Origin: Globomyces pollinis-pini
Taxonomy: Eukaryota; Chytridiomycota; Chytridiomycetes; Rhizophydiales; Globomycetaceae
DNA length: 38,785 nucleotides
Assembly: GCA_025399215.1 (NCBI GenBank)
Contig: MU621131.1
Coordinates: forward strand, 55,620-94,404
Direction of reading: 5' to 3'
The stretch's first letter is position 1, and each line of letters begins with the position of its first letter. This document shows, in pieces, positions 613-27,135 of this stretch. The notes beneath the pieces are model-generated. The model was not told the DNA's origin. It worked only from the letters and a program-made list of their open reading frames with translations, and did no database searches. Both the position numbers and the translations under genes were made by a program.

Positions 613-990
613 ATGACACCTCAAGACAAAAAAGAAGCTTCTCAACATCATTCGATGGTAGAACGACAACGTCGTGATAGGATAAAGGATTGTGTTCAAC
701 AATTAAGACAAATCGTACCTGCTAGTGCTTCAAAGAAGAAAATCCAAAAGTTACAAATTCTCGAGAATGCTATTCGATACATTAAACAAAATCAAGCAGT
801 TTGGGAATCAAACAACAAAAACTTTACTCCTTTTGTAGGATTAGTAGAAAGTCATTCTTCTTATCAAAGTGATAATGATTCCAATTCCGTTTATTCCGAA
901 AATCAACGAAATGTTCTTGAACATCGTACACCACCTTACTCACCAGAGAAAAAGTTTAGAAAGATGAGTATCGAAAACTTATTATCGTGA
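613..990 (+). CDS. Small bHLH transcription factor (bHLH-1, subfamily I)
   Basis: A 125-residue intronless basic helix-loop-helix protein, expected to bind E-box DNA as a dimer in the nucleus. The basic region begins near residue 13 and has His13, Glu17 and Arg21, the H-E-R set of group B factors that read CACGTG-type sites. Helix 1 follows (RIKDCVQQLRQIVP), then a short lysine-rich loop and helix 2 (IQKLQILENAIRYIKQ, to about residue 60). The rest is Ser/Asn-rich and probably disordered, except for the last eight residues, MSIENLLS, which match the tail of the other eight bHLH proteins here. The helices group it with bHLH-8 and bHLH-9, about 25 kb away. The start at 613 is supported by the TATA box 29 nt upstream. 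The targets are unknown. Confidence 0.9.
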   Translation: MTPQDKKEASQHHSMVERQRRDRIKDCVQQLRQIVPASASKKKIQKLQILENAIRYIKQNQAVWESNNKNFTPFVGLVESHSSYQSDNDSNSVYSENQRNVLEHRTPPYSPEKKFRKMSIENLLS

Positions 991-1108
991 TCTGTATTTC
1001 AGATACTATTTATCTAAATTATTAATATAAAACTTTTTATCAATACTCTTCATGTATTTGTTTTGGTTGTACTACAATAGGCTGTGATCCCATAAACTCT
1101 TTTACATC

Positions 1109-1440
1109 ATGAATAGTAACGATACATCAATTCAGAATCAAGTTGATGAAGTGATCGTTGTCATGGAGGGTATACAAATATTAGACTCATCATAGACAAC
1201 CTTCAAAGAGTTTATATGAGGCAAGAAAAACTAGAAGACTTGAATTTAAAAAGTGCAGAATTAGAACAGAAATCTAAACAATTCAAAAAAGGTGCTAAAG
1301 TTGTCAAGAAACAAGTTTGGTGGAAAGAATTCAAAATCAAGTTGTTTATATTCTTTGTATTGTTTATGATTTTGGTAGCAGTTGGAGGTATTCTTATGAT
1401 TTTCATTAACCATTTAGCTATTCTTATCCTACAAAAATAA
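1109..1440 (+). CDS. SNC1: Synaptobrevin/VAMP-type R-SNARE
   Basis: Two exons, 1109-1169 and 1196-1440, joined across a 26-nt intron (1170-1195), give 101 residues. The first exon is too short to stand out alone; splicing yields VIVVMED-NLQRVYMRQEKLEDL, the standard start of the R-SNARE motif. The zero-layer Arg is in YMRQEKL. The motif continues to the juxtamembrane WWKEFKIK, followed by a C-terminal hydrophobic anchor of about 22 residues (LFIFFVLFMILVAVGG onward). The protein should sit on secretory or endosomal vesicles and pair with Q-SNAREs for fusion. The order SNARE motif, WWK, anchor and the total length are those of yeast Snc1/2 and animal VAMPs. Which vesicle class it serves cannot be read from the sequence. 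Confidence 0.93.
1170..1195 (+). other. 26-nt intron in the synaptobrevin gene
   Basis: GT...TAG intron. Removing it restores the frame and the conserved MEDNLQRV sequence. It represents the modal intron size of this window (26-29 nt). Confidence 0.85.
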
Positions 1441-1837
1441 ATAGGAATGTTTCTAAGAATTATTTGAATTCATATCTACAAATTCAATGAAAATGACTGT
1501 TTTAAATTCATAACTATCTCAACTTGATCGATACATTCATAACTAATCGATTCATTTCGAGTTTACCAGGGATCATAATCAAGTGAAGCCATCAAGTTTC
1601 ATACTTTCATGTTCCAATTTCAGTTTCATCCTTTCATTGATCCTAGTTTCATGAATATCTGGCTTTGCCCTTGAAACCAGTGATGCGTGCAATCATAAAG
1701 AATGAATTGTGGCTCGTGGAGGGGGGTGAGTGATGTCAATTGGGTGACTCTCTTGTGTATTTGAGCCAGTTGTTGACCAACTAAAGAACAATCGACGGTT
1801 CATGTCATTCAAGCCATTCATTTAAACCGAAGTGTGC

Positions 1838-1883
1838 ATTCACGCCATTGCCTTTTTTTAGTTTCAATCGATTCACGCCATTG
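1838..1883. repeat. 13-bp direct repeat
   Basis: ATTCACGCCATTG occurs twice, starting 33 nt apart. No function is evident. Confidence 0.5.
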
Positions 1884-2156
1884 ATTTTATTTCATTCCAG
1901 TATTTGGTTAATGAATCTAGGATTTATATCGATATTCTACAATTTATTCACTTCATTTAACCTAGACACCATGAATGATTATGGAAGGTGTTTATTGCAT
2001 TCCTTTTATGAAATTGTTAGTGTTATCAATTAAACAGTTTTAAGTCACTGTAATAAGTTTTCAGGTTTTAAACAAATTATTGTCTTTTAGATCTACGTTA
2101 ATGATTGAATTGATTCTCGTGTCTGTGTGACCCAAAAAACTCATTTTTAAACTCTT

Positions 2157-2180
2157 TGAGTCATTGTGACAGTTGAGTCA
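2157..2180 (+). promoter_or_regulatory. Two AP-1-like sites upstream of MLRQ-1
   Basis: TGAGTCA at 2157-2163 and again at 2174-2180, the second inside GTTGAGTCAACAT. They lie about 60-85 bp before the TATA box at 2241. The same heptamer stands before MLRQ-2 and globin-1, which suggests bZIP (Yap/Gcn4/Atf class) control; this is inference. Confidence 0.4.
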
Positions 2181-2240
2181 ACATGATATTTCCATGAACA
2201 AAGACAAATCAAACTTGATTCAAAATGACCAGTAAAGGGA

Positions 2241-2248
2241 TATAAAAA
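2241..2248 (+). promoter_or_regulatory. TATA box of MLRQ-1
   Basis: TATAAAAA, 44 nt before the ATG at 2293. An ATG at 2254 opens an out-of-frame 7-codon reading frame, but the transcript start may lie beyond it. Confidence 0.55.
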
Positions 2249-2292
2249 CCAATATGGAATTATCATCACATCCATAATCAAAACAATTCAAT

Positions 2293-2571
2293 ATGGCAAT
2301 TGCAATCAACTCTCAAAACAACATGGGTCTTGGTAATTTCTTCAAATTCAAGAAAATCCCACTTGGAATTTACCCTCTATTAGCTATTATCGGTGGTGCA
2401 GTCTCTGGAGGAACCTATTTCATGTACTTTTGTATAACAGGACCTGAAATTCAAATCCGTAAAAATACTGATAGTATTCCAGCCAATATGTTACTTCAAC
2501 CAAATGAAACTGTAAAGTTCTACCGTCCAACTGATAATCATTTCGTCCATTGGAAAAGACAATTCAAATAA
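2293..2571 (+). CDS. MLRQ/B12D (NDUFA4-like) mitochondrial membrane protein, copy 1
   Basis: A 92-residue intronless protein of the B12D / NADH-ubiquinone oxidoreductase MLRQ-subunit family. Family members are small single-span inner-membrane proteins associated with respiratory complex I or IV. Visible features: a basic stretch (FFKFKKIP), one hydrophobic span (about residues 25-47, YPLLAIIGGAVSGGTYFMYF), then GPEIQIRKN, which matches the family's post-membrane N/GPD-V segment. The C-terminal NETVKFYRPTDNHFVHWKRQ resembles the family's YKFYS-V-Y ending. Two closer paralogues lie at 19959 and 22693; this copy is the most divergent of the three. Family assignment is by motif; the partner complex is not certain. 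Confidence 0.75.
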   Translation: MAIAINSQNNMGLGNFFKFKKIPLGIYPLLAIIGGAVSGGTYFMYFCITGPEIQIRKNTDSIPANMLLQPNETVKFYRPTDNHFVHWKRQFK

Positions 2572-3057
2572 TTCTATGCATTCTTAAACACTTATCGATA
2601 CGATAATATATCTTTTTTTTTTCCTCTATGTTCTAGTATTGACCTCATAATATATCCATTCCAATTTAAATCTCGTTATTTTTTTAGTTTTGCTAATTAT
2701 GTCCATTAAAAATCATGATTTCATCAAAGCCACTACCATTTAAAAAAGCCATTGAAACTAGTGAAAAATGTTTCAATTAAAGTCATTGAAAGTGAATGTG
2801 GAAAAATGTGATTGTGTTGAATCAATTGATGATGTCAACTATGGCAGTGACTGATCAAATATTGGATAGTCATAATGATTACCATTCGTTTGGGATTAGT
2901 GTACAGATTATTCTTTGTTTCTCTATTATTGTCGCTTTGTTGTAATGGGTTTGTGGAATTGTTAGGTTGTTTGAATGGGATTAAAATAATATAATTAATA
3001 ATGAACATGAATATGTACACAATGTTTTTTAAAATTGAGTCAATGAGACAATAATAA
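2572..3057. other. Intergenic region between MLRQ-1 and PEX14
   Basis: Convergent 3' ends of MLRQ-1 (+) and PEX14 (-). A 75-residue minus-strand frame at 2835-3062 is AT-driven and has no recognised domain. Nothing else seen. Confidence 0.5.
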
Positions 3058-3095
3058 TTCATACAAGTTGATATATTGAGAATTCTAAACCAGCA

Positions 3096-4224
3096 TTAAC
3101 CAGATACTGAAGTGGTAGGAAAGTTTCGTCTGGATAATAAGATACCTTTCAAACTACGAATTTCACTCTTGATTGCTTGTACATCCTTTTGTGATGCGCT
3201 TCGACCTTCGGATGGATAATAGACTGCTTGGCGTACATCTCTAGCCAATTCTTTGACTGATTCATTAACGCTGTTCAAATCTAATCCTTCAGATTTTTGA
3301 ATATCTTGAATGATTATCTGAGTTTTGGATAAATTCTTGGAATTGTTGTACACCATTTGTTTAAATGATTTTAGTATGCTAAGGTCAGTTTCTTCACAAT
3401 CTGATATTTTTTTGAATAGATTAAAGTAAGGTAGATTATCCATTAAATGGTTTTGCATTAGTGTTAATCGGATTTGAAGGTGTTCCTTGTACAATTTAAC
3501 AAAAGGACGATACACGTTTACAACCCATTCCTGTATAAAGAATTAGAATTTAGATTGAATTATTACCTGCCATTTCTTTATCATAAATACTACACCACCA
3601 CCAACTGATATCATTATTAATCCAATGATATATTTTGACATTAGATATGATTTTTGAATGGGTTGTTCATGGATAGGTTGTGTATAGTTTGGTACTATTG
3701 TACTTGGTCGTGAAGGAAGTGGTGGTTGGGTGTTTACTGGTGGATTAACCACATTTTGAACTGCATTTTGAGTTGAAGTTACGTTTGTATTTGACACACG
3801 ACTAGAACGATTAGATTAGATTTATTTACCTAAATGCAATATTAATCTCTTCCATAGATAATCCTTTTGATTTTAAAAACTCTATCTTTTTATCTTTTGG
3901 AGCTGATATAACTTTTGTCAAGAATTGAACGGCTATTTGAATTTGATCCTCTCGAATGGGACTTTTCACTTGTTCCTTTTTGTTTTCGATTTCGACAAGT
4001 GTATTTGGTTTACTGCTAGTTTGGTCTTGATTACCAATGGTATTTACTGTACTATTGCCTGACTGATTCATATTTGTAACGTCACCTGTTGAGAGTTTTT
4101 CTTCCGTTACAGAAGACATTGAATTCTTCAAACTATTTTGTGATTGGATATGTTTTTCACTCTTTATTTCCAAGTTCTCATTTCCTTCTTTTGAAAGTGG
4201 GTTGCTCTCAAGTTTCTTATCCAT
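3096..4224 (-). CDS. PEX14: Peroxin-14 (peroxisomal import docking protein)
   Basis: Three exons on the minus strand (4224-3830, 3801-3567, 3530-3096) separated by introns of 28 and 36 nt give 354 residues. Residues 91-133 form the conserved Pex14 N-domain (REDQIQIAVQFL ... FLKSKGLSMEEI), which binds WxxxF motifs of the PTS1 receptor Pex5. A PPLPSRP proline motif near residue 160 resembles the Pex13 SH3-binding site of yeast Pex14. A single glycine-rich membrane span follows (about residues 190-206, IIGLIMISVGGGVVFM), then a helical C-terminal region. The protein should be in the peroxisomal membrane as part of the docking and translocation pore. Start: the frame is open further upstream but runs into the neighbouring gene, so the ATG at 4224, 109 bp after that gene's stop, is preferred. 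Confidence 0.92.
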
Positions 4225-4333
4225 AAAAAATAAAAAAATTGGAAAGACATTGAAGGAAAGAGATGGTAGACTACTGATCCTTACTGTTCTTAGAAACTTC
4301 ATGTCATGAGAACATTCAAAGAAATGTTTATTA

Positions 4334-4675
4334 CTATTTACAACTACAACATTTCTTCTTTTTTCTTGAAAATGCAACTGCAGAATAGAGTTCCTTCAAT
4401 TGACCATTTGTAATAGAATTTTGATAAATAGTCATATTCTTTTGATAGTTATCCCAATCAAGTTTTTCATTTTGATGTTCATCACCAACAAAATCAAACT
4501 GATTATCATTCAAATGATCTTGTGAAGAGGTCATTAAACAGTCATCATTAATGTTGTGATGAATTTGATTGCAAGATTTACATAAATCAATTTTTTCACA
4601 ATGACAATCACAATAATGAGTACCTTCACAGACTTGCTTTTCACACACCAAACACCAATTTACAAAGTAATCCAT
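4334..4675 (-). CDS. Ecl1-like small Cys-rich protein 1 (CxxC type)
   Basis: A 113-residue intronless protein starting MDYFVNWCLVCEKQV. Cys8-x2-Cys11 and Tyr21-Cys22 ... Cys26 match the C-x2-C ... YC-x3-C signature of fungal Ecl1/2/3-type zinc-binding proteins (extender of chronological lifespan). Extra cysteines (16, 24, 32, 35) and two histidines nearby could bind more metal. The usual YCS is YCD here. The middle is acidic and Asn-rich and the C-terminus ends in a basic and Cys-rich tail (KKKKCCSCK). Its start is nearly identical to that of the next gene at 5770. In fission yeast this family answers nutrient and zinc or sulfur limitation; the role here is inferred only from family resemblance. 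A TATA box lies at 4786-4793. Confidence 0.6.
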   Translation of the reverse strand: MDYFVNWCLVCEKQVCEGTHYCDCHCEKIDLCKSCNQIHHNINDDCLMTSSQDHLNDNQFDFVGDEHQNEKLDWDNYQKNMTIYQNSITNGQLKELYSAVAFSRKKKKCCSCK

Positions 4676-4785
4676 TCTTGATTTTCAATTCGATAGTATG
4701 AAGAAGAGTAGCTTTAATACAATCAAGTAGGATAATAGTTTGTTTTGATAATAATTGACTAGGTTTTTCTGCATTGAATTTCATA

Positions 4786-4793
4786 TTTTTATA
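4786..4793 (-). promoter_or_regulatory. TATA box upstream of Ecl1-like 1
   Basis: TATAAAAA on the minus strand, 110 nt before the ATG at 4675. The distance is longer than for the other genes here, so the assignment is tentative. Confidence 0.35.
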
Positions 4794-5357
4794 GTCATTT
4801 TGTCACACAACGAATGAAAAATCAAAACGGATCGAAGGAGATATTCGGAATGAACGGAATTGAATAAAGAATCAGTCCGTGATGTTATTGAAATCTTTAT
4901 AAAGTAGCTTATTAATTTTATCCTTTCTTTAACGTCTGACCGTTTTAGTGATTACAATGCCACGTAGGTTTGTGTTCATGTGTTTTTTTATCAGATAATA
5001 AAAAGTTGATACTATCAATTGGAATTGATTGCTGTGGTCCTATGATAACTGTCAATACGCAATGATATGTTCTTTATATTTTCATAACGTGAATATGATA
5101 TAATTGTACGTACCAAGGATAAGTATGGAATAGTAGATCTGCATAAGCAAGGGTATATGTATAATATTTATGCAATGAATCCATCTTATTGAATATTTTT
5201 AAATCTGGACTCTTGTGCATAGTTTTTATGCAAGGGTAAACTCAAACAGGATTCTTCATAAACTTATAAATAACTATGTTTTTTTTATTTTACTTTTTAA
5301 TAGCGATAAACTATAAATAATCATTTTTTTTACATTGGGGATGAACATCATACAAGT
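4794..5357. other. Intergenic region between two Ecl1-like genes
   Basis: Promoter side of Ecl1-like 1 and 3' side of Ecl1-like 2, both on the minus strand. AT-rich with no coding signal. Confidence 0.5.
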
Positions 5358-5770
5358 TTATACCTTTTTTTTGAAGGGATTTGATTTTTTTTTGTTTACA
5401 AAAGTAGGGAAGGTATAAGTGACTTGATTAAGTGAAAGCGTTCCAGTAGAACTAGCAGTACTTGACATAGAAGTAGAATTTGAGTGAATCGAAGAATGTA
5501 AGGTTGAAGAATTTAAAGAATTCTGATCACAATAAGAAGTCATTGAATTATTTTGACAATCAAATATATCCACATCATTACAAGTTAATGGAATTTTGGT
5601 AGAATTTAGTCTCAAGGCAGTGTAATCATCCAAATAAGATAAATGACTGAATTCATTGAATTGACAATTTTCAGAACAATATAGACAATCTGACTAGGAA
5701 GGTCAAAATAACAAACACTTACAGGAATAGACTTTTCACAAACCAAACACCAACCAATAAAATAATCCAT
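5358..5770 (-). CDS. Ecl1-like small Cys-rich protein 2 (CxxC type)
   Basis: Two exons, 5770-5723 and 5693-5358, with a 29-nt intron (5694-5722) give 127 residues. Without splicing the zinc motif is lost. The spliced start is MDYFIGWCLVCEKSIPSDC, with Cys8-x2-Cys11, then LYCSENC (Cys22, Cys26): the exact C-x2-C ... YCS-x2-C form of the Ecl1 family. After about residue 40 it is Ser/Thr/Asn-rich and ends in a basic SNPFKKKV. It shares its first 13 residues, with a few changes, with the gene at 4334-4675, so the pair is a tandem duplication that has diverged in the tail and in intron content. Confidence 0.65.
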
Positions 5771-6438
5771 TATTTCTTGTTTCCCTTTCTGTATCTTTTA
5801 ATTGGTTTCTTTAAAGTTTTTGAAGGAAAGAAATTCAAAGATAAGTTTTTGATAAATTCATGAAATTGATAATGATTTTAAATTCATTAATGACAAGGTC
5901 AGATGTGCAATCTCGTGGGCGGTCAGCAAAAACGTGACTGATAACAGACTCCCCACTAATCAATACCACATAAATGGATTCACTGAATCAATATGGATTG
6001 AATTTAATAACTATCAAAAGGGATTGGTTTAACCAATGAACGACATGGACTCGGGACGTGTTTTGTTATCCGTGTTTTTCTCATTACGACAATCCTTGTG
6101 GTGTTGTCAGACGATCCACCTTTGTTTGTTGTCAGATCAACTTGTATCTTATAACCTATTAATTTAGCAAAATCAATCATCATCATTAGGTGATTCGTGT
6201 TTGCATAATATTACCAAAATCGGAACGCAATAAAATACCACCAAACCGGAACATATAACCAACTTCACTGGAGCACAACACTCCGCATAGCACTTACAAG
6301 GCATGATCCAATTCAAACGACTCTCACTATCAGTTTCTTCAATCAACTATGTGGCAATCGGTCGTTTTACATTTATCTACCTACTTACAAACCTCAATAG
6401 ATAAGAAAAAAAAACAGTTGGGTAACGGAATAGATTTA
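5771..6438. other. Intergenic region, no supported gene
   Basis: Between the promoter of Ecl1-like 2 and the 3' end of the dehydrogenase gene. A 60-residue minus-strand frame at 6004-6186 is not recognisable. The frame at 6349-6663 (+) is a shadow of the dehydrogenase. Confidence 0.45.
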
Positions 6439-9137: not shown

Positions 9138-9395
9138 ATGGAAGATTTCACCAGTTGGTGTCGATGCGATAAAAAAGTCCCTCATGATGTAGTTTACTGC
9201 TCAAATGAATGTCTCGTCAATGATTTCTCGTCTATTGATTCTTCTACTGTATATTTATGTCCATCTCAACGTTCTTGTCAATATTCTACTACTCAACCTC
9301 CATATGTGGATTATATTCATTCTCAAATGCATTTCACCAGAAAAACTGTTCATCATAATTTAAAATCTAGAATAAGAAAGTACCATTCTTTTTAA
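9138..9395 (+). CDS. Ecl1-like zinc-binding protein A (CxC type)
   Basis: An 85-residue intronless protein. The first 32 residues are shared with proteins B and C. Cys8-x-Cys10 (WCRC) is followed by His16 and the YCSNEC block with Cys21 and Cys25, then LVNDFSS. This is the Ecl1-family pattern with one residue less between the first two cysteines than in the two genes at 4.3-5.8 kb. The remainder is Ser/Tyr/Gln-rich and ends in a basic stretch with RKYHSF, an eroded form of the KRYN-HEYFL end of B and C. It is convergent with bHLH-2. Length agrees with the 80-90 residues of fission yeast Ecl proteins. Family call is by motif only. Confidence 0.65.
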   Translation: MEDFTSWCRCDKKVPHDVVYCSNECLVNDFSSIDSSTVYLCPSQRSCQYSTTQPPYVDYIHSQMHFTRKTVHHNLKSRIRKYHSF

Positions 9396-9746: not shown

Positions 9747-10028
9747 TCAGTTAAATATTATCAAGTTGGAAATATTCATTGGATGATCAGTATCTCGAAG
9801 TTTTCGATTTGATTCATTCAAATTCAATTCCAATTGTATGTTTTGTAAATATTCAATGGTGTTTGATAAGATCTGAAAAGTCCCTAGGTTCAAATTGTTG
9901 GTTGATTCTCTGTTTTTGGGAACAAGTTCAACCAATCGTTGTAAACATTTTGATATTCTTTCTCGACGTTTCTTTTCAATTTGTGAATGTCTAATCTTTC
10001 TTTGTCGAATTTTCTCTGATTCATTCAT
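9747..10028 (-). CDS. Small bHLH transcription factor (bHLH-2, subfamily II)
   Basis: A 93-residue intronless protein, the shortest of the nine. Basic region with His14, Glu18, Arg22 (RHSQIEKKRRER), helix 1 ISKCLQRLVELVP, a 13-residue loop with NLG, and helix 2 TFQILSNTIEYL. It ends HPMNISNLI-IFN, with the common tail motif set three residues in from the terminus. It belongs with bHLH-6 and bHLH-7. Start: ATG 10028 matches the N-termini of its relatives (M-x-x-SEK); an in-frame ATG at 10055 and open frame to 10094 would extend it. It is divergent from Ecl1-like B, sharing a promoter with two CACGTG sites, one of which may be bound by the bHLH itself. Confidence 0.85.
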   Translation of the reverse strand: MNESEKIRQRKIRHSQIEKKRRERISKCLQRLVELVPKNRESTNNLNLGTFQILSNTIEYLQNIQLELNLNESNRKLRDTDHPMNISNLIIFN

Positions 10029-10118
10029 TTTAGTTTCAATAATTAAATTTGACATTGGGAGTTTGAGTGTGTCAAAGTCATCAAATGAAATCAAACCAAT
10101 ATACCTTCATTTGTTTAA

Positions 10119-10124
10119 CACGTG
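10119..10124. promoter_or_regulatory. E-box CACGTG
   Basis: A perfect CACGTG 90 bp upstream of the bHLH-2 start, in the region shared with Ecl1-like B. Confidence 0.5.
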
Positions 10125-10259: not shown

Positions 10260-10277
10260 AGTGTTCACGTGAACACT
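10260..10277. promoter_or_regulatory. 18-bp perfect palindrome centred on an E-box
   Basis: AGTGTTCACGTGAACACT is its own reverse complement; CACGTG occupies 10266-10271. It lies midway between bHLH-2 (starts 10028, -) and Ecl1-like B (starts 10404, +). Group B bHLH dimers bind this core, so auto- or cross-regulation of the pair is plausible. Confidence 0.6.
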
Positions 10278-10403: not shown

Positions 10404-10658
10404 ATGGAAGATTTCACCAGTTGGTGTAGGTGTGGTAGAAAAGTTCCTCATGATGTTATTTACTGTTCAAATGAATGCCTAGTCAATGATTTTTCTTCTG
10501 TATATACTTTTCAAACGTTGGACTCAAATGGTTACCCAATTTCTTGTACAAATCAATCCCAATATCTCAAATACCTATACCGTCATCTGAAATTTTGTAG
10601 TAGGAAACCGCTTCGACAAAAGCGATACAACGATCATGAATATTTTTTAACAACATAA
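10404..10658 (+). CDS. Ecl1-like zinc-binding protein B (CxC type)
   Basis: An 84-residue intronless protein. It has Trp7-Cys8-Arg-Cys10, His16, and YCSNEC with Cys21 and Cys25, then LVNDFSS. The middle is polar with two further cysteines. The C-terminus, RKPLRQKRYNDHEYFL plus two residues, is shared with protein C and was probably the ancestral end. It stands head-to-head with a subfamily II bHLH gene, as protein C does. The frame is open upstream to 10338, but the TATA box and the paralogues favour 10404. Confidence 0.7.
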   Translation: MEDFTSWCRCGRKVPHDVIYCSNECLVNDFSSVYTFQTLDSNGYPISCTNQSQYLKYLYRHLKFCSRKPLRQKRYNDHEYFLTT

Positions 10659-14950: not shown

Positions 14951-15355
14951 TTAAGTTAATAGATCATTGATTTTAATTTTTTTCTTTACATGAGTTTGTT
15001 CATCCGTATTGAATTGATTATCGGTTAAAGTAGAAGATGATACGATTGAATCTTTTGAAATGCTATCAGAATTTGAAGGAATTGAGTCTTGTTTTGAAGG
15101 AGGAACGTACATTTCGAATTGTAATTGATTTAAAGATTTAAAATCATTTACATTAATATTTCTTTCTTTTTGTAATTTTTCAATATATTCTACAGTATTT
15201 TCTAATATAGTTAATTTTTGTAAGAATTCATGTTGATGATTTTTAGGGACGATTTTTTTCAATTTGTCCATACATTCAGCAATTCTTTCTCGTCTCTTTC
15301 TTTCTATAGCAGAATGAGATTTCTTCCTTTGAGTTTCTTTTTCTTTTAAATCCAT
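14951..15355 (-). CDS. Small bHLH transcription factor (bHLH-3, subfamily III)
   Basis: 134 residues, no intron. Basic region HSAIERKRRERI with His14, Glu18, Arg22; helix 1 AECMDKLKKIVP; helix 2 FLQKLTILENTVEYIEKLQ with a short leucine/glutamate extension. The C-terminal half is Ser/Asp-rich and ends KKKIKINDLLT, the most divergent version of the shared tail (Met replaced by Ile). Its closest relatives are bHLH-4 and -5 just to the right, but it lacks the intron that both have after the codon for Val in NTV-E. Convergent with BNA1, 102 bp apart. Confidence 0.9.
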   Translation of the reverse strand: MDLKEKETQRKKSHSAIERKRRERIAECMDKLKKIVPKNHQHEFLQKLTILENTVEYIEKLQKERNINVNDFKSLNQLQFEMYVPPSKQDSIPSNSDSISKDSIVSSSTLTDNQFNTDEQTHVKKKIKINDLLT

Positions 15356-15898: not shown

Positions 15899-16299
15899 TC
15901 AAGTCAGCATGTTATCAATAGACATCTTTCTACATTTGACCTTTTTACTTGGGTTGCTAACCTCCACCATTTCTACAGTCCCATCTCCACTGGTCTTTTC
16001 ATTTACATATATATCACAAATTGTATCTACTGATTCTAAATCATAGATCTTTGGTAGTGGAAATGTATATTGTTGGTGTTTTTGCAGATACTGCAAATAC
16101 TCTACAAAAACGATGAGAATGATAAGGTATTACCAACTGTGTTTTGTAATATGGTGAGTTTTTGTGGGTTCTCTTGATGTTGATTTGCAGGTACCAATCT
16201 TCGTAACATTTCCATACATTCACTTATTTTTTCTCTACGTTTTCGTTCAATGGCTGAATGGTGTTCTTTCCTTTTCTTTATCTTTTCTTCATATTTCAT
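15899..16299 (-). CDS. Small bHLH transcription factor (bHLH-4, subfamily III)
   Basis: Two exons, 16299-16134 and 16101-15899, with a 32-nt intron (16102-16133) give 122 residues. Splicing joins helix 2 (QKLTILQNTV-EYLQYLQ), so the bHLH domain is broken unless the intron is removed. Basic region HSAIERKRREKI with His14, Glu18, Arg22. The C-terminal part is polar and ends KCRKMSIDNMLT, the shared tail. The N-terminus MKYEEKI-KRKE is almost identical to bHLH-5; exon 1 is 166 nt in both with the intron at the same phase-1 position, so the two are recent tandem duplicates with fast-diverging C-terminal regions. Confidence 0.9.
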
Positions 16300-17449: not shown

Positions 17450-17967
17450 TTACGATAACAAATTAGTAATACGCATTGAGCTATGCTGTTGACGCGGACT
17501 AGCTGATATAAAAGTATTCAAGTTGAGATATTGTTCTTGACTGGAATGTAACAGATTGACAGTAGTTATGGATGGACTTTGTTCAGATCTACCCAAGATA
17601 GCATGTTTTTCATTCATTTCACCATTGTAAACAGTCACACCGGAAGTTGTTTCGTTATTCAATAGAAAGATTTCGTTTGTGATTGGGCTACTATGGAGGA
17701 GATCAGACTTATCGATGGTTTGTGAATCTGGTTGAATGGGTATTCCTAATAGTCGTTGTAATTGTTCAACATATTCTAAAAATGAATTATATGTAACATA
17801 CCAACAGTATTTTGTAAAATTGTAAGCTTTTGAAGACTTTCATGCTCTCGGTTTTCAGGTACCAATACTCGAAGTCTATTCATACAGGCTGCAATTTTCT
17901 CCCTTCTCTTCTTCTCTATTGCCGTATGCGCTTCCTTTCTCTTTCTAATCTTTTCCTCATATTTCAT
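17450..17967 (-). CDS. Small bHLH transcription factor (bHLH-5, subfamily III)
   Basis: Two exons, 17967-17802 and 17775-17450, with a 26-nt intron (17776-17801) give 163 residues. Basic region HTAIEKKRREKI with His14, Glu18, Arg22; helix 1 AACMNRLRVLVP; helix 2 LQKLTILQNTV-EYVEQLQRLL across the splice. After a Ser/Thr/Asn-rich stretch it ends HSSMRITNLLS, the shared tail. The intron has the same phase and position as in bHLH-4. Confidence 0.9.
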
Positions 17968-18675: not shown

Positions 18676-19172
18676 TTATTTGGAGTAGTATCTATAGAGT
18701 AAAGCTCCGCCGACAGCTAAACCGGCAGCTCCAACCAAGACATATGGTAACTGTTCATTCAATGAAAATGGTTTCTTTGGTTCACGTCCTAATACATCAT
18801 CTTTTGTGGTGGCAGCAATCGCAATTACTTCGTCAACAAGATCTTGGGAGACTCCAAGTGTGGTCATGGCTTTTGCAAGAGTTACGGCCACACGATTAAA
18901 GTGTTCTTCAGTCAAATTCAATTTTGCATGAGCAACGCGCATGTTCTTTCCATCGTATGGAGCTCCACCCAAAACATGGTTTAGGAATGATTTTTGCATC
19001 CGTCTTTGTCTTTTCATGTTGGTTTTTGCAAATAATGGACCAACAAGTTCATCTTTTAGAAGCATGTCGTAGAACAATTCCACACTAATGGTCAGATATA
19101 TACAAATAATTACGTTGCGTCAATTGCAGGTTCACCACCTAACTTTTCGTACAAAGTCTTTTCTGAGCTCAT
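18676..19172 (-). CDS. Tail-anchored truncated hemoglobin (group I), copy 1
   Basis: Two exons, 19172-19114 and 19084-18676, with a 29-nt intron (19085-19113) give 155 residues. It is a 2/2 globin: LYEKLGGEPAID N-terminus, Tyr25 (B10), Phe38 (CD1), Gln46 and Gln50 (E7/E11 region), and the proximal His72 in AHAKLNLTEEHF. This distal Tyr-Gln set is typical of group I globins that bind O2 tightly and detoxify nitric oxide. Unusually, after about residue 130 there is a C-terminal hydrophobic segment (LPYVLVGAAGLAVGGALLY) ending RYYSK, which looks like a tail anchor; the short span with basic flank suggests the mitochondrial outer membrane or peroxisome (inference). Upstream: a TATA at 19209-19216 and a TGAGTCA. 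Confidence 0.9.
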
Positions 19173-19958: not shown

Positions 19959-20225
19959 ATGTCCTCATCAATCAAAACTAACTCTGCCATGGGTCTCACC
20001 AGTTTCTTCCATATCAAGAAAGTTCCAGTAGGTATCTACCCCTTACTAGGAATCATTGGTTTTGCTGTAGGAGGAGCAAGCTACTTTGCCTACCATTCCC
20101 TTAGTGGACCTGAAATCCTTCTTCGAAAAGGTGAAGCTCCAAATATGTCTTTAAAATCAAACGAAACTACTAAATTCTATCGTCCTACCGAAGGCCATTT
20201 CGTACATTGGAAAAGACAATTTTAA
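19959..20225 (+). CDS. MLRQ/B12D (NDUFA4-like) mitochondrial membrane protein, copy 2
   Basis: 88 residues, no intron. Basic HIKKVPVGIYP precedes one hydrophobic span (about residues 25-47, YPLLGIIGFAVGGASYFAY), followed by LSGPEILLRKGEAP and a C-terminal NETTKFYRPTEGHFVHWKRQF. These are the blocks of the B12D / MLRQ family of respiratory-chain-associated single-span proteins. It is divergent from globin-1 and convergent with bHLH-6. In plants, B12D genes are induced by low oxygen; whether that applies here is unknown. Confidence 0.77.
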   Translation: MSSSIKTNSAMGLTSFFHIKKVPVGIYPLLGIIGFAVGGASYFAYHSLSGPEILLRKGEAPNMSLKSNETTKFYRPTEGHFVHWKRQF

Positions 20226-20443: not shown

Positions 20444-20950
20444 CTAGGATATCAAGTTGGATAACCTCATTGGATAATTTGGATCTTGGGATGATCGCTT
20501 AAGCGATAGAACAGTTGGACAGACGGAAGATTTAACATTACTATTTGAACCACTCTTACAATGATTTTGTGAAGGAAAAACAACAGGTTTGAATAATAGA
20601 TTTGGTGTCAAACAACGATTCACATGACTTTTTTTGGCCATTGGAGGACTAGCAGAAAGATTAGGAAGGATATCATTTGGTGGGGCAAAACTAGGAAGCG
20701 AAACTGGGTACGTACAATTGGGTTTCGAAGAATCAGCACTGTTATTTTTCATCTCTTGGATGTATTCAATAGCATTTGTGAGGATCTGAATAGTACCCAA
20801 TAGATAATTATTTGGAGTGTCTCTACTTTTTGGTACCAATTGAACCAAACGTTCCAAACATTTTGATATATTTTGCCTTCTCCTCTTCTCAACCTTTGAA
20901 TGCCGAATTCTTCTTAATCTATCCTTTTCTTCTTTTAGATCAGCAGTCAT
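20444..20950 (-). CDS. Small bHLH transcription factor (bHLH-6, subfamily II)
   Basis: 168 residues, no intron. Basic region RHSKVEKRRRQNI with His17, Glu21, Arg25; helix 1 SKCLERLVQLVP; loop ending LLGT; helix 2 IQILTNAIEYIQEM. The central part is Pro/Ser-rich and polar. The end, SQDPNYPMRLSNLIS, matches bHLH-7 (SQDPNHPMRISNLIMS) and carries the shared tail. It is the bHLH member of duplication unit 1, 218 bp from the end of MLRQ-2. Confidence 0.9.
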   Translation of the reverse strand: MTADLKEEKDRLRRIRHSKVEKRRRQNISKCLERLVQLVPKSRDTPNNYLLGTIQILTNAIEYIQEMKNNSADSSKPNCTYPVSLPSFAPPNDILPNLSASPPMAKKSHVNRCLTPNLLFKPVVFPSQNHCKSGSNSNVKSSVCPTVLSLKRSSQDPNYPMRLSNLIS

Positions 20951-21440: not shown

Positions 21441-21926
21441 TTATTTCGAATAGTATCTATAGAGTATAGCTCCGCCGACAGCAACTCCAGCCAAGACATA
21501 TGGCAAATGTTCATTCAATGAAAATGGTTTCTTTGGTTCACGTCCTAATACATCATCTTTTGTGGTGGCAGCAATCGCAATTACTTCATCAACAAGATCT
21601 TGGGAGACTCCAAGTGTGGTCATGGCTTTTGCAAGAGTTACGGCCACACGATTAAAGTGCTCTTCAGTCAAATTCAATTTTGCATGAGCAACGCGCATGT
21701 TCTTTCCATCGTATGGTGTTCCACCCAAAACATGGATTAAGAAGGACTTTTGCATCCGCCTTTGTCTTTTCATGTTGGTTTTTGCAAATATTGGTGCAAC
21801 AAGTTCATCTTTTAGAAGCATGTCATAGAACAATTCCACACTAATGGTCAGATAAATACAGTATTACGTGGCATCAATTGCAGGTTCACCACCTAACTTT
21901 TCGTACAAAGTCTTTTCTGAGCTCAT
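21441..21926 (-). CDS. Tail-anchored truncated hemoglobin (group I), copy 2
   Basis: Two exons, 21926-21868 and 21840-21441, with a 27-nt intron (21841-21867) give 152 residues. All heme-pocket residues described for copy 1 are kept. The protein differs from copy 1 at a handful of positions (for example Gly35Ala, Leu37Ile, Asn55Ile, Ala61Thr) and has a three-residue deletion in the C-terminal hydrophobic anchor (LPYVLAGVAVGGAILY, then RYYSK). A 209-bp core (21508-21716) differs from copy 1 at only two bases, both silent, pointing to recent gene conversion. Confidence 0.9.
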
Positions 21927-21960
21927 TATTTTTTTTTTATGCTCTGTAATGCGCTGCTCG

Positions 21961-21968
21961 TTTTTATA
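21961..21968 (-). promoter_or_regulatory. TATA box of globin-2
   Basis: TATAAAAA on the minus strand, 34 nt before the ATG at 21926. TGACTCG at 21983-21989 follows, a one-base-off counterpart of the AP-1-like site of globin-1. Confidence 0.5.
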
Positions 21969-21989
21969 CTGGACGGGATTGGTGACTCG

Positions 21990-22651
21990 ACATTTTGTTG
22001 AATCATCATTTGTCACAGAACTATGTGGCGTTTAAAGAACTTTGCCAAACGGTGGACTGTTATCAGGTTTTTGTGTAGGTTTTCTAGAAAGATTTAGATA
22101 ATAAACCTTACGGAATTGAATCGACTCTTTCAAATGGGATTGGCGAAATGAGTTGGTTGTGGCTGTGAGTCACTGGCATTTGGGGGTGTTGTTATAGATG
22201 AAAAGTAATTAAACCGTTGCTTTAAAACTCGTTAGACGTAAGTTATAAGTGGTTCATTCGAATAATATATTTTATATAGTCCGTAGTACCCAGTTTGAGT
22301 ACGAGGATTTTCCATTTGTGGGCAAACTATTTTCGTTCTACTACCATAATCTGTTCTTTCACATAGCAGTGACTGGTATACGATTATCCAGTGTTTATTA
22401 AACTAAGTGGTTCGCTTTTTATTCCTTATACCACTCCCTGTTTCAGTGTTGTAACCAGAAACGGATTTTTCTGAAAACGAATCATATTACAATTGAGGTT
22501 TTGACCCATGTTAAATTATACATGTATTGTGTCAAGCACTATAAAGAGCCGCAGTTTTCCCTGTTTCTACTCTGAAGTTCTGCTCGCAGAACAACCTAAT
22601 CTTAAAATGCGTAACAGGGTGTTTGTAGTACAACATTCAATCACTGAGGTA
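21990..22651. other. Divergent intergenic region, globin-2 / MLRQ-3
   Basis: Counterpart of 19232-19909. Carries TGAGTCA at 22166-22172. A plus frame at 22508-22750 overlaps MLRQ-3 in another frame and is rejected. Confidence 0.45.
22166..22172. promoter_or_regulatory. AP-1-like site between globin-2 and MLRQ-3
   Basis: TGAGTCA in the shared upstream region, about 240 bp from globin-2 and 480 bp from MLRQ-3. Confidence 0.3.
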
Positions 22652-22659
22652 TATAAAAT
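22652..22659 (+). promoter_or_regulatory. TATA box of MLRQ-3
   Basis: TATAAAAT, 33 nt before the ATG at 22693, in a leader homologous to that of MLRQ-2. Confidence 0.6.
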
Positions 22660-22692
22660 CACAGAAATCAATATCAATTCCAACATCAAAAT

Positions 22693-22959
22693 ATGTCCTC
22701 ATCATTCAATTTTAACTCTGCTATGCGATTCAGCAACTTCTTCAAATTAAAGAAAGTTCCAGTAGGCATCTACCCCTTATTAGGCATCATTGGTTTTGCT
22801 ATAAGTGGGGCTAGCTACTTTGCCTACCATTCACTTAGTGGTCCTGAAATCCTTCTTCGAAAAGGTGAATCTCCACATTTATCGCTAAAATCAAACGAAA
22901 CAACAAAGTTGTACCGTCCAACCGAAGGCCATTTCGTATATTGGAAAAGACAATTTTAA
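22693..22959 (+). CDS. MLRQ/B12D (NDUFA4-like) mitochondrial membrane protein, copy 3
   Basis: 88 residues, no intron, same length and layout as copy 2. It has FFKLKKVPVGIYP, the span YPLLGIIGFAISGASYFAY, LSGPEILLRKGE, and a C-terminal NETTKLYRPTEGHFVYWKRQF. Differences from copy 2 include many silent sites, so this pair is clearly older than the near-identical globin core beside it, or it has escaped conversion. Confidence 0.77.
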   Translation: MSSSFNFNSAMRFSNFFKLKKVPVGIYPLLGIIGFAISGASYFAYHSLSGPEILLRKGESPHLSLKSNETTKLYRPTEGHFVYWKRQF

Positions 22960-23769
22960 ATTACCTTATGGAACTAATAAAGACCTCATGATAAAGCTCA
23001 CAATTACGTAGTGGTTGCCTACTTTCCTACTCTTATTTGTTGCTTTTACGTGATATTTAGTAAAGGGTTCAGGTCTAGTTAACATTATCTGACTCTCCTT
23101 TTATATCGTTTGTCAAACACGGACAAAAGATTTTCTTTGATAATCTCTGATAAGGGTAAAATTGTTTCATCTAGAGTTCAACACCGTATCTTCAAGCTAT
23201 GGAAACTAGGATAAAAGAAGATTACAAAGTGAGTGGAGAATTGTTTAGATTTTCATGAGGAGAAATATGAAGTTACCTATTTGAATTATTAATCACAATC
23301 TGGATCTGAAGTTCCTCTTTCATCACTATCAAGTAGATTATGGAGATATTTACGACATTTATTGTGATGTTTAATTCTCCAGTGGTATATATGTTGAATA
23401 ACATGATTCATTTTAATTTCAACTTCAATTTTATATACTCTTTGCCAATTTGGTTCGATAAAAGAAAATCTGAATTTTAATTGTAGTGTTGGATCAGTAG
23501 TATGCAACGGATATTATGACTTTATTGGCAATGAACATGTCAAATCATTTTCGTATGGTTGATACAATTGTTTGTTTTCACTACTGTGTTAGATATAATC
23601 TTATTGTATCTGAGCTCAAAAATGGAATCGAATAAATAAAAGGTGTGTTTATGGTGTCATGTAAAGGAAATGGGGATCAAAATGGAGAATATGATTTATA
23701 TTATATTCGTTATTTAAATACAGTGTTGACATGGAGTCTGTTAAACCGCCATTGTCAATCAAATGCTGA
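22960..23769. other. 0.8-kb region present only in unit 2
   Basis: In unit 1 the MLRQ and bHLH genes are 218 bp apart; here 810 bp. A minus-strand frame 23289-23507 has its only ATG at 23411 (40 residues) with a TATATAAAA 17 nt before it, too close to serve it. No transposon signature or target-site duplication was recognised. Confidence 0.45.
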
Positions 23770-24405
23770 TTAGGACATGATCAAGTTGGATATCCTCATT
23801 GGATGGTTTGGGTCTTGAGATAATCGCTTAAAGGACGGAACTGTCGGATCGATGTACACTGTATTGTATTGGCTTGCATTATTAGAACCACCTTTGTAAT
23901 ACTTTGTAGAGGTGAAGATGGAAGGCGTTGTATAGGAGTCATAAAAATCACTTCTGATTGCATCTCGATTCCAATATTGATATGTTTTACCTAGTGTAGA
24001 GCCATCGGAAGGAAAAACTAGTGCAGGAGAAGAAGTAGTGGTAGGACTAGCAGAAGGAATAGAAGGGCTAGCAGAAGGAGTGATAGGACTGGCATATGGT
24101 GTACTGAAAAGAGGTTTAGCAGAGGCATTATGGATTGAAGGTGCAATGAAGTTGTTCGTTTTGACTATGGGAGTATCATATTTAGAAAATTTGTCAAGTT
24201 TGATTTTCTTTTCATGAAGATACTCAATAGTATTGGTCAGGATCTGAATAGTACCCAATGGAAGACAATTTTTAGATTCTGGTTCTCGATTTTTCGGTAC
24301 AAGTTCCTTCAAGCGATTCAAACAGTTTGATATCTTCCGCCTTCTCGTCTTTTCAATCTGGGAATGTTCGATTTTCCTAAGTCGGTCTTTCTCTGAATCG
24401 GTCAT
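23770..24405 (-). CDS. Small bHLH transcription factor (bHLH-7, subfamily II)
   Basis: 211 residues, no intron, the longest of the nine. Basic region EHSQIEKTRRRKI with His14, Glu18, Arg22; helix 1 SNCLNRLKELVP; loop ending LPLGT; helix 2 IQILTNTIEYLHEKK. The middle has degenerate ASP repeats (YASPITPSASPSIPSASP), a Pro/Ser/Thr-rich stretch. It ends SQDPNHPMRISNLIMS, with the shared tail. It is the bHLH member of duplication unit 2. Head-to-head with Ecl1-like C, 249 bp apart, repeating the bHLH-2/Ecl1-like B arrangement. TATA box at 24437-24444. Confidence 0.9.
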   Translation of the reverse strand: MTDSEKDRLRKIEHSQIEKTRRRKISNCLNRLKELVPKNREPESKNCLPLGTIQILTNTIEYLHEKKIKLDKFSKYDTPIVKTNNFIAPSIHNASAKPLFSTPYASPITPSASPSIPSASPTTTSSPALVFPSDGSTLGKTYQYWNRDAIRSDFYDSYTTPSIFTSTKYYKGGSNNASQYNTVYIDPTVPSFKRLSQDPNHPMRISNLIMS

Positions 24406-24436
24406 GGAGAAGTTTCGGTACAGTTCAACACCACTC

Positions 24437-24444
24437 TATTTATA
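24437..24444 (-). promoter_or_regulatory. TATA box of bHLH-7
   Basis: TATAAATA on the minus strand, 31 nt before the ATG at 24405; identical to the bHLH-1 element. Confidence 0.6.
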
Positions 24445-24602
24445 TCTGTTGTTTTGTCACAATGAATTGCGTCATTTTACAGTTGATTGGTGTGGGGTGG
24501 CTTTTGGGATGCACTTTTGTACAGAGTTCAAAAGATCACGCCATAGAAGGGTTATATGATGATACCATGACGAATAGCAAGGGATGTTAGGAAAGAGAGT
24601 GA

Positions 24603-24610
24603 TATAAAAG
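24603..24610 (+). promoter_or_regulatory. TATA box of Ecl1-like C
   Basis: TATAAAAG, 44 nt before the ATG at 24655. Confidence 0.55.
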
Positions 24611-24654
24611 CTGACAGTCATTGGCGTTGATATTCAAAATCTGAACTTAAAACA

Positions 24655-24951
24655 ATGGAAGAATTTACTAGCTGGTGCCGTTGCGATAAAAAAGTCCCTC
24701 ATGATGTAATCTACTGCTCAAATGAATGTCTGGTCAATGACTTCTCCTCCATAACCGAATCCGATCCAATACAATCAAACGAATATCTTTCAACACCTCG
24801 TGTTGGACAACCTTTATATCTAAAAAATCTGGCCTACCTGATTTCTAATCAGTCAGATAACCATCAAGATATCAGTCTGCAAATGAAATTCACAAGGAAA
24901 CCTTTTAAACCAAAAAGATACAATTCGCACGAATATTTCTTGGCTGTTTAA
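24655..24951 (+). CDS. Ecl1-like zinc-binding protein C (CxC type)
   Basis: 98 residues, no intron. Trp7-Cys8-Arg-Cys10, DKKVPHD with His16, YCSNEC (Cys21, Cys25) and LVNDFSS, as in A and B. A polar, unconserved middle is followed by RKPFKPKRYNSHEYFL plus two residues, the end shared with B. Only the N-terminal finger and this tail are conserved, so both are likely functional elements. It is divergent from bHLH-7. Confidence 0.7.
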   Translation: MEEFTSWCRCDKKVPHDVIYCSNECLVNDFSSITESDPIQSNEYLSTPRVGQPLYLKNLAYLISNQSDNHQDISLQMKFTRKPFKPKRYNSHEYFLAV

Positions 24952-25634
24952 TTTGTAAATCGATAAATAAAGATCCTCTATTCAAGGAGATACATGTTAT
25001 CATTGTAGAATGAATGTAATAACCGTTCAAGTTGTTGATTAATATATTCTTAAACACCAAGATTTGATTTTTAGTATTCAATAAGTAGTCAATGTGATGA
25101 ACAAACCAGGTTTGTTTCCCTTAAGTATTGTTCTGATTAAGCCTAGTTATACTCATATATGTTATCCCTTATCATTGATTCTTCCAGTAATTTTTTTACA
25201 ATCTCCGTATCGCAACTTGAAATTGAAAGAATGTATAATAATCAATCTCAATTTATTTACTATCCATAAATATAATTGGTAAAAGAACTTTTGGCGCGTT
25301 AAATTAGACCTTGAAATTGTACGAGTTTATGAGAATGACAAGTACGGAAAACAACACCCCTTGATTAACCAAAGTGCCCAGGTCAATCAAGGGCTGTGGC
25401 AAATTATAGGGCCAAACGACATTGATGCGTCATTAAAGGCTAATTTGTTCAAGAGTACTGTGAGAGTAAGTATCAGTTTCATTTTAAATTCCATCATAAT
25501 GACTACGTTTCAAAGTGAATCTAAAGTTTATGAATGGTAAAGCGAGTCAAAATCAAATGTGATTTATTTTTCGTGATATTGATTGAACAGCATATTGAAA
25601 AAGAAACACTACATAATTTAAATTATAACATATT
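24952..25634. other. Intergenic region between Ecl1-like C and bHLH-8
   Basis: No supported gene; a 62-residue frame at 25094-25282 has no features. A 9-bp perfect inverted repeat is at 25358-25393. Confidence 0.45.
25358..25393. repeat. 9-bp inverted repeat
   Basis: CCCTTGATT and AATCAAGGG with an 18-nt loop. Could form a hairpin; it is not near a gene end. Confidence 0.4.
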
Positions 25635-26000
25635 TTATTGTTCTAGAATGTTTGCAAGACTCATGGGATTTGGAGATGGACTTCTACTTTTGTGAGAAAC
25701 AGGACCAGCTGATGGATTAAATGTTTGGTAAATTTGATACCCAGACCGGCTGGGTTCATTCTGATAATTACAACAGTTACAATACGTACAATTGCAAGTA
25801 CAACTGTTAGCACCTTTTAGTCTTTCCTCCAATTCCTTAATGTAAGCGACAGCATTTTCTAGTATATGCAATTTTTGAATTGATTTTTGGTGTGCACTAT
25901 TAGGGACAAGTTCCTTTAGTTGTTCAACACATGATTTAATTTGAATTCTTCTTCGTCGTTCAATCATAGAATGGGTTAAACCCTCTCGCGAATTGGACAT
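25635..26000 (-). CDS. bHLH transcription factor with a cysteine cluster (bHLH-8, subfamily I)
   Basis: 121 residues, no intron. Basic region THSMIERRRRIQI with His10, Glu14, Arg18; helix 1 KSCVEQLKELVP; helix 2 IQKLHILENAVAYIKELEERL. Directly after helix 2 come six cysteines in eleven residues (Cys67, 69, 71, 74, 76, 77; C-x-C-x-C-x2-C-x-CC), resembling thiolate metal clusters of copper or zinc sensors. The polar C-terminus ends NPMSLANILEQ with the shared tail. Start: the frame is open to 26066, but a TATATA at 26031-26036 lies inside that extension and the ATG at 26000 aligns with bHLH-9, so 26000 is chosen. Confidence 0.88.
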   Translation of the reverse strand: MSNSREGLTHSMIERRRRIQIKSCVEQLKELVPNSAHQKSIQKLHILENAVAYIKELEERLKGANSCTCNCTYCNCCNYQNEPSRSGYQIYQTFNPSAGPVSHKSRSPSPNPMSLANILEQ

Positions 26001-26601
26001 TTTTTGGGAGTCGTCGTTCTCTTGGGACCATATATAAGTAACGCAGCCAGTGTTGGCGGTTCGCACTAGCCAGGGATTTTCTGGAGGCGCAATGTTTTAG
26101 GTTTTCGGATCACACTTTATCTCGAGAATTGCTGTCCTAGTTGAGCGCAATTAAGATGGGTAGGATACGGGGAAATATTATCCACATCTGCTTCTTTTGA
26201 TTTGTCTTGTGCTTAATTGCTACTCTGGTATTCAATTTCAAACATTTCTGGGCAAGTTTCAGGGACAATTCTCGAGTAGGTTTGAGATCCCTGATCAAAT
26301 TGCTTCTTCCTTACGTCATTTTAATTCTTGCTTTGCTGCTGCTCTTAAAAAAATATCTTAGTTGAATATGAGTTTGTATCACATATGTGTAAATTTACTG
26401 GAATGAATGTCTTGTTCAAGAAAATGTCAAAATCAAAGTTCAAATGCGGGAGGTAGTATTCATTTCAGGGCATATCGATATTTTCTACTTGACATTTTTG
26501 TAACGCAAACATATTGCAAACGCTGAACGAGGGTTCTTTAAAAAATAATTCTTTATTGATATATAAAAGCGAAATAATTAACTATGCACTTGAACCAGCC
26601 A
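26001..26601. other. Intergenic region, bHLH-8 promoter side
   Basis: Contains the bHLH-8 TATA (26031-26036) and an 11-bp inverted repeat with CTCGAG cores (26121-26286). No other gene. Confidence 0.45.
26121..26286. repeat. 11-bp inverted repeat with CTCGAG cores
   Basis: CTCGAGAATTG at 26121-26131 and its complement CAATTCTCGAG at 26276-26286, 144 bp apart, upstream of bHLH-8. Confidence 0.4.
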
Positions 26602-27135
26602 TTAGTGCAATAAATTCTTAATGCTCATTGGTTTATCTGATGGTACAGGTGATTCCAGCGCTGGAGAAAGGTGGGCAGATGTAATTGTATGGGTTAAAGA
26701 GGTGTCATGCGGACTTATTGTGGATGGGGTGGGAATGAGACTTGATATGAGTGGGTTGGATGTGGTTGAGATAGTAGAGTCTGAGTTAGCTCTTTGGCGT
26801 GTCACGATTTCCAGGTGTGAATTGGCAGGGCTAGCAGAATTATCATCATCATACATGTCTATGTCACTGCCTCCACTATATGTGGAGATATTTTCCTGAT
26901 CTTCTAATGCCGGGTCGGAATTGAATGGACATTTACATTTCTCCCATCTTTCATTCTGCTGTTTAATGTATCTTACAGCATTTTCTAGAATATATAGTTT
27001 TTGAATAGTTTTTTTCTTTCTACTTTCAGGCACTAGCATCTTTAGTTGTTGAACACATGTCTTTATCCTTTCTCGCCTCCTTTTTTCCACCATCGAATGA
27101 GTTAACCCTTCCTTGTCAACTTTATTTGATTTCAT
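26602..27135 (-). CDS. Small bHLH transcription factor (bHLH-9, subfamily I)
   Basis: 177 residues, no intron. Basic region THSMVEKRRRERI with His13, Glu17, Arg21; helix 1 KTCVQQLKMLVP; helix 2 IQKLYILENAVRYIKQQNERW. Two cysteines follow (Cys67, Cys69 in EKCKCP), at the positions of the first two in the bHLH-8 cluster. A Ser/Thr/Pro-rich region leads to DKPMSIKNLLH, the shared tail at the exact C-terminus. An ATATAAAC at 27173-27180 stands 37 nt before the ATG. The plus-strand frame 26621-26899 is its shadow. Confidence 0.9.
   Translation of the reverse strand: MKSNKVDKEGLTHSMVEKRRRERIKTCVQQLKMLVPESRKKKTIQKLYILENAVRYIKQQNERWEKCKCPFNSDPALEDQENISTYSGGSDIDMYDDDNSASPANSHLEIVTRQRANSDSTISTTSNPLISSLIPTPSTISPHDTSLTHTITSAHLSPALESPVPSDKPMSIKNLLH

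Follow-up and report, generated by a model that had tools for sequence, protein, structure and literature searches.

Nine clustered bHLH genes of the chytrid Globomyces pollinis-pini end in a short peptide also found on C2H2-type proteins of the same genome

How did nine small basic helix-loop-helix (bHLH) genes come to lie within 27 kb of a chytrid genome, and what do their products have in common? The stretch that raises these questions, which we call the window, is 38,785 nucleotides of DNA from Globomyces pollinis-pini (Chytridiomycota, Rhizophydiales; GenBank assembly GCA_025399215.1, contig MU621131.1, positions 55,620 to 94,404 of the forward strand). It is the last 38.8 kb of that contig (C42 here; 94,404 bases) in an assembly of 18.5 Mb and 459 contigs. 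An earlier, sequence-only reading had placed nine bHLH genes in 613-27135 and had explained them by repeated local duplication and a network of dimers. All nine genes were found at those positions with the open reading frame (ORF) list and the Pfam HLH profile, each scoring above the cut-off of 20.7 bits, and the duplication stands. The most telling feature had been missed, however: a peptide shared by the proteins at their C-terminus, hereafter the tail. The notable finding is that this tail is common to two unrelated DNA-binding families, bHLH and C2H2-type. It suggests that the proteins have an output in common, probably repression, and not just a diversity of dimers. The nine genes are as follows.

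613..990, plus strand: bHLH group I, 125 aa; ORF, HLH 61.2 bits; tail MSIENLLS at 964-987.
9747..10055, minus strand: bHLH group II, 102 aa (93 from the second Met); ORF, HLH 36.5 bits; tail MNISNLIIFN at 9750-9779.
14951..15355, minus strand: bHLH group III, 134 aa; ORF, HLH 55.5 bits; tail IKINDLLT at 14954-14977; identical to database protein P0001.
15899..16299, minus strand: bHLH group III, 122 aa; exons 16299-16134 and 16101-15899, HLH 58.7 bits spliced; tail MSIDNMLT at 15902-15925.
17450..17967, minus strand: bHLH group III, 163 aa; exons 17967-17802 and 17775-17450, HLH 50.7 bits spliced; tail MRITNLLS at 17453-17476.
20444..20950, minus strand: bHLH group II, 168 aa; ORF, HLH 43.0 bits; tail MRLSNLIS at 20447-20470; database protein P0003.
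23770..24405, minus strand: bHLH group II, 211 aa; ORF, HLH 39.0 bits; tail MRISNLIMS at 23773-23799.
25635..26000, minus strand: bHLH group I, 121 aa; ORF, HLH 55.1 bits; tail MSLANILEQ at 25638-25664.
26602..27135, minus strand: bHLH group I, 177 aa; ORF, HLH 44.2 bits; tail MSIKNLLH at 26605-26628; modelled with AlphaFold2.

Seven of these genes are single open frames, and their unspliced products score 36.5-61.2 bits against Pfam HLH. The other two (15899 and 17450) have one predicted intron each. Both introns are very short (32 nt, 16102-16133, and 26 nt, 17776-17801, respectively) and interrupt the same Glu codon in helix 2. Splicing lifts the HLH score of 15899 from 47.1 bits (exon 1 alone) to 58.7 bits and that of 17450 from 43.2 to 50.7 bits. 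The smallest protein had been given as 93 residues, a length that gene 9747 yields only from its second Met; it encodes 102 residues from the first. The His-x3-Glu-x3-Arg set of the basic region is present in all nine proteins, as had been claimed, and by this signature they are predicted to be of the E-box-reading type.

Searching the whole genome with the Pfam HLH profile gave 35 hits, a lower bound with genes matched exon by exon. Contigs C126 and C422 share 273 bases at their ends, with one mismatch, and show the same gene twice; merging them left 34 distinct loci, and this was the only overlap among the contig ends compared. Thirty of the 34 loci form one family, with nine members in the window, ten in a second array on C126 and C422, three on C81, three on C37 and single members on C19, C103, C275, C287 and C293. 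The remaining four loci (on C165, C1, C22 and C40) look by their sequence like other bHLH classes, C40 from a partial hit alone. With 34 loci over 18.5 Mb only about 0.05 would be expected in 26.5 kb, so the nine found there are far beyond chance.

The tail, typically M-x-[I/L]-x-x-L-L-x-stop, is present in 28 of the 30 family members. It was scored with the pattern [MI]-x-[ILV]-x-x-[ILM]-[ILVM], ending no more than five residues from the C-terminus, which was drawn up after the sequences had been seen. Exactly one residue follows the motif in 24/30 members. When the regions after the domain were shuffled (2000 rounds) the mean number of matches was 0.16 and the maximum 3, and none of 1563 internal linker windows matched. 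Among the 28 tails, the first residue is Met in 26 and Ile in two, position +2 is Ile in 17 and Leu in 11, and position +5 is Leu in 26, Ile in one and Met in one. The C-terminal parts of these proteins can barely be aligned except for the final ~8 residues. The two members scored as misses are C103:4400, in which ten further residues come after MSIRHLV, and C126:24087, with neither tail nor basic region. An AlphaFold2 model of 26602 gives predicted local distance difference test (pLDDT) values of 83-97 for ten-residue blocks of the bHLH domain, ~48-55 for the linker and 71 for the last block (171-177), with a short terminal helix at residues 172-176.

Six C2H2-type ORFs of the same genome also end in the tail: three on C6 at locus L028, one on C6 at L029 and two on C136 at L030. 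These loci were found by running DNA patterns for the tail over the genome (matches on C6 and C136) and so were fetched because of the pattern. Four of the six proteins pass the Pfam zf-C2H2 cut-off (25.2). The L028:5380 protein scores 23.2, with its DNA hit above the cut-off, and the L029 protein has one irregular finger at 21.4 bits. The strict tail occurs in 30 of 540 ORFs of at least 60 aa, comprising 23 bHLH (one of them a fragment at a contig end), six C2H2-type and one other. The 540 ORFs come from 292 kb, made up of the window and the loci (L001-L008 and L040 dropped as duplicates), several of which were fetched because of the tail. A search for relatives of the C2H2-type proteins gave 11 candidates, all from Globomyces, which does not imply absence elsewhere.

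On C6 there are seven tail matches in 109516-116991, all on one strand and 1.0-1.7 kb apart. Three are the L028 ORFs; 243 bases upstream of a fourth (116965) lies a Pfam zinc finger, as at 111716. There is a tandem array of small tail-ending C2H2 genes on C6, with two more genes on C136 (L030:2959-4377).

The spacing of the chytrid tail is that of the Tup1-binding N-terminus of yeast alpha2, and all four hydrophobic positions fit. Table 2 of PMC10163088 gives the start of the alpha2 co-repressor region as MNKIPIKDLLN, and PMC4901127 describes repression-defective mutations at positions 4, 9 and 10. The latter source describes the region as contacting Tup1 and calls it EH1-like, having the spacing of animal EH1 with Ile for the aromatic residue; it also presents yeast Tup1 as the Groucho homologue and EH1 as a short amphipathic helix that binds the WD40 propeller of TLE1. 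Measured against this Ile-first type, the tails match in spacing and begin with Ile in 2/28. MAT alpha2 shares with the Globomyces proteins the spacing Phi-x-I-x-x-L-L in a fungal sequence-specific DNA-binding protein. It differs in that it is a homeodomain protein and has the motif N-terminally, whereas here the motif is C-terminal, mostly starts with Met and is carried by bHLH and C2H2-type proteins. The aliphatic residues at +2, +5 and +6, present by the pattern in 28/30 members, and the predicted short helix are as in metazoan EH1; the Met or Ile start, in place of an aromatic residue, and the extreme C-terminal position are not. Since a link from EH1 and alpha2 to Tup1 has already been published for homeodomain proteins, we regard the C-terminal version on bHLH and C2H2-type proteins as a new variant rather than a category of its own. 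Searching the open-access literature with a few terms, we found neither this array nor a C-terminal EH1-like tail of fungal bHLH proteins described.

The genome encodes a candidate partner. There is a Tup_N match at C13:53558 (70.4 bits with its neighbours) followed by WD40 exons, which together make up a tup1-like gene. One of the WD40 exons matches Tup1 (1erj) at rank 10 of 575 WD40 chains.

Proteins of the same family from other fungi (Basidiobolus, Spizellomyces, Powellomyces, Mortierella and Racocetra among them) have a homologous domain. The tail was found in 12 of the 24 relatives from outside Globomyces (four from Basidiobolus, one each from Spizellomyces, Powellomyces, Mortierella, Entomortierella and Racocetra, and three others) in a non-exhaustive search giving one to a few hits per genus. 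Most are named 'hypothetical' or by domain, and they are known here from their protein records. A Terramyces protein with MDIDNLLS within a longer C-terminus was left uncounted. For group III, a single Terramyces protein was found among 23 candidates besides the window's own, which does not imply absence elsewhere.

We put at about 60% the probability that the array encodes minimal repressors, made up of a bHLH domain, a disordered linker and a Tup1-docking tail, that have been multiplied in arrays. An old fungal family would here have two dense clusters, of which the array in the window is one. On this account, which is drawn from sequence, tandem and segmental duplications in the Globomyces lineage would have enlarged the family. 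The bHLH domain would dimerise and read an E-box, and a fast-changing disordered linker would join it to the tail. The amphipathic tail of ~8 residues (M-x-I/L-x-x-L-L-x) would dock on Tup1, the Groucho/TLE homologue of fungi, at its WD40 propeller, and the docked Tup1 would bring the co-repressor and hence repression. Duplicates would keep both the reading head and the output tag, while their dimer preference, target choice and expression could drift.

Several observations weigh against this account. The short pattern alone is weak: genome-wide it gave 21 matches against 6 for the reversed control, 21 against 9 and 16 against 8, and in its loosest form 56 against 46. The case for the tail rests on where the matches fall, in bHLH and C2H2-type proteins, not on genome-wide totals. 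The His-Glu-Arg set is kept in 26/30 family members and is absent in C287:2828, C81:31312, C126:13467 and C126:24087. Twelve of the 24 relatives lack the tail, several of these being partial or unnamed records. A classical EH1 motif was rejected, since the first residue is Met (26/28) or Ile (2/28) and never aromatic; animal EH1 motifs are described as beginning with an aromatic residue (PMC1310626). Over the whole window there is no E-box enrichment (CACGTG, 2 found and 2.9 expected; CANNTG, 205 found and 193 expected), and enrichment as a sign of cross-regulation was rejected on these counts, which are undecisive for E-box binding. Of the elements of the account, expression of the genes, their dimerisation, binding to DNA, docking on Tup1 and repression are all inferred.

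Also to be set against Tup1 are three matches to Sin3-type PAH domains at C35. The tail might be a Sin3-interaction helix, which would recruit Sin3 and histone deacetylase by way of a PAH domain, as Mad1 or Sap25 does, and it does fit the alanine-free type I pattern of Sap25, PhiXPhiXXPhi (PMC10163088). However, five of the seven Sin3 interactors listed in that source (Mad1, HBP1, REST, Pf1 and TGIF1) have pattern alanines, and 0/28 tails have an alanine after the motif, the chain ending one residue on in 24/30. The alpha2 pattern fits all four hydrophobic positions. Recruitment of Sin3 by the tail seems to us unlikely. The make-up of the tail raises another alternative, since comparable short hydrophobic helices function in activators: it could be an activation or Mediator-contact peptide, and the array would then encode activators. 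An acidic context is usual for fungal activators; it is not evident at the tails, several of which are preceded by Lys or Arg, and the alpha2 match points to a repressor. Activation, too, seems to us unlikely.

Repression through Tup1 would bring the locus close to the animal HES/E(spl) genes. E(spl)-C is described as seven bHLH genes with four intermingled Brd genes (PMC1310631). As in that system, the Globomyces genes encode small bHLH proteins with a C-terminal tag and lie in a tandem cluster mixed with other small gene families; clustering of the HES/E(spl) kind is found, here of genes for putative repressors. Unlike that system, they belong to a different kingdom and their tag is EH1/alpha2-like, not WRPW. 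Neither WRPW nor WRPY occurs in 32 bHLH proteins of the genome, and Pfam scans of all nine window proteins gave no Orange-domain hit at E 0.01; membership of HES/E(spl) was rejected for these two reasons. By analogy only, the Globomyces arrays may follow the E(spl) logic of many reading heads and a constant output. The chances seem to us evenly balanced that this is an old fungal counterpart of the HES/Groucho logic, in which a Tup1-docking tag is standard on array-multiplied bHLH and C2H2-type proteins and the HLH-only C126:24087 could act like an Id inhibitor.

The chytrid lineage has seen little experimental work on gene regulation. The 34 bHLH loci, 30 of one family, would be an independent case of the E(spl)-type array strategy in a chytrid, and the shared tail makes a concrete prediction on the mode of action of nearly all these proteins. 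If the tail binds Tup1, Groucho-type recruitment through a C-terminal bHLH tag arose or persisted in both fungi and animals.

The gene C126:24087 (L011:4030-4362) has an intact frame of 111 aa, whose HLH domain scores 25.6 bits. Its product lacks the tail as well as the His-Glu-Arg basic region but retains a linker motif of its neighbours. It could be an inhibitor of the Id kind or a copy in decay.

How the array arose was addressed with a tree of the bHLH domain (63 columns and 46 rows, without C22, C40 and one relative), in which 20 of the 43 inner branches are open. The sequence-only reading had sorted the nine genes into three groups of three. Groups II (9747, 20444 and 23770; 100/97) and III (14951, 15899 and 17450; 94/84) were recovered with window genes only, but group I (613, 25635 and 26602; 99/99) also includes C37:36496 and C103:4400. 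Two further genes, C37:2198 and C37:772, join group II at 97/86. The genes on C126 and C422 form two groups besides these, and the C81 genes join one of them (93/62 and 92/61, weak). Proteins from Terramyces and one metagenome fall beside groups II and III, so part of the split between groups may predate Globomyces, and the 30 family genes were not recovered in this tree as a Globomyces-only clade. Most members of a lineage-specific clade had been expected to map to this locus. That expectation failed, and the idea that the window holds most of the family is rejected: it holds 9/30, with a second array of ten and smaller groups elsewhere. The array is a local duplication within a genome-wide family expansion. 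For Aspergillus nidulans, PMC8396895 gives 13 predicted bHLH genes and describes their diversification as not via tandem duplication.

Repeated local duplication is borne out by the window-only groups II and III and also by the neighbours, which have been copied as well (B12D three times, Ecl1-like three times and globin twice).

2293..2571, plus strand: B12D/MLRQ-like small protein, copy 1; PF06522 31.6 bits, paralogue cluster; downstream of bHLH 613.
19959..20225, plus strand: B12D/MLRQ-like small protein, copy 2; PF06522 31.1 bits.
22693..22959, plus strand: B12D/MLRQ-like small protein, copy 3; PF06522 30.5 bits, repeat D3.
18676..19065, minus strand: truncated (bacterial-like) globin, copy 1; PF01152 39.3 bits.
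21441..21821, minus strand: truncated globin, copy 2; PF01152 41.3 bits; 96% DNA identity over 300 nt; dS 0.17.
9138..9395, plus strand: Ecl1-like, copy 1; PF12855 21.1 bits (below the 28.3 cut-off), repeat D4.
10404..10658, plus strand: Ecl1-like, copy 2 (start may be 10338); repeat D4, paralogue cluster.
24655..24951, plus strand: Ecl1-like, copy 3; PF12855 26.1 bits (below the 28.3 cut-off).
10119-10124 and 10266-10271, no strand: the window's only two CACGTG E-boxes, between the divergent bHLH 9747 and Ecl1-like 10404, in the upstream region common to both genes.

The repeat spacing is 2.73-2.76 kb for the globin and B12D genes and 3.46 kb for the adjoining bHLH II genes. Divergence varies along the duplicated block, increasing from globin (synonymous divergence, dS, 0.17; non-synonymous, dN, 0.026) through B12D (dS 0.41, dN 0.10) to the bHLH II pair 20444/23770 (dS ~1.2, dN 0.45; ~60% identity in aligned codons). 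Either conversion between the genes at the globin end or duplication in steps would account for this pattern, and both fit. Synonymous change is saturated in most bHLH pairs, and no age is therefore given for the array.

These data bear on whether the array came about by ordinary tandem duplication and has no special function, with many of its copies heading for loss and the tail simply passed on. The tandem copies do carry linked neighbours, and C126:24087 has lost its basic region and tail. Yet the pairs are old (20444/23770 at dS ~1.2 and most others saturated) and the window frames, His-Glu-Arg sets and tails are intact. The tail also persists where the remaining C-terminal part does not align, and it is found on the unrelated C2H2-type proteins. 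Inheritance without function is improbable in our view.

Other small gene families lie near the bHLH genes. On C42, upstream of the window, a gene pair is present in three tandem copies directly before the array (L026:1-5423); one frame from L026 was scanned against Pfam and gave no hit. Small families of apparent membrane proteins lie beside the second bHLH array and on C19 (L009:3972-7051, L010:1679-2140 and L022:5361-6379); one of their frames has no Pfam hit and another has a weak 7tm_1 match below the cut-off. On two short contigs, closely similar genes (L018:1168-1920 and L020:284-1036) stand beside diverged bHLH genes. The similarity probably reflects a segmental copy, and the L018 copy matches DUF4097.

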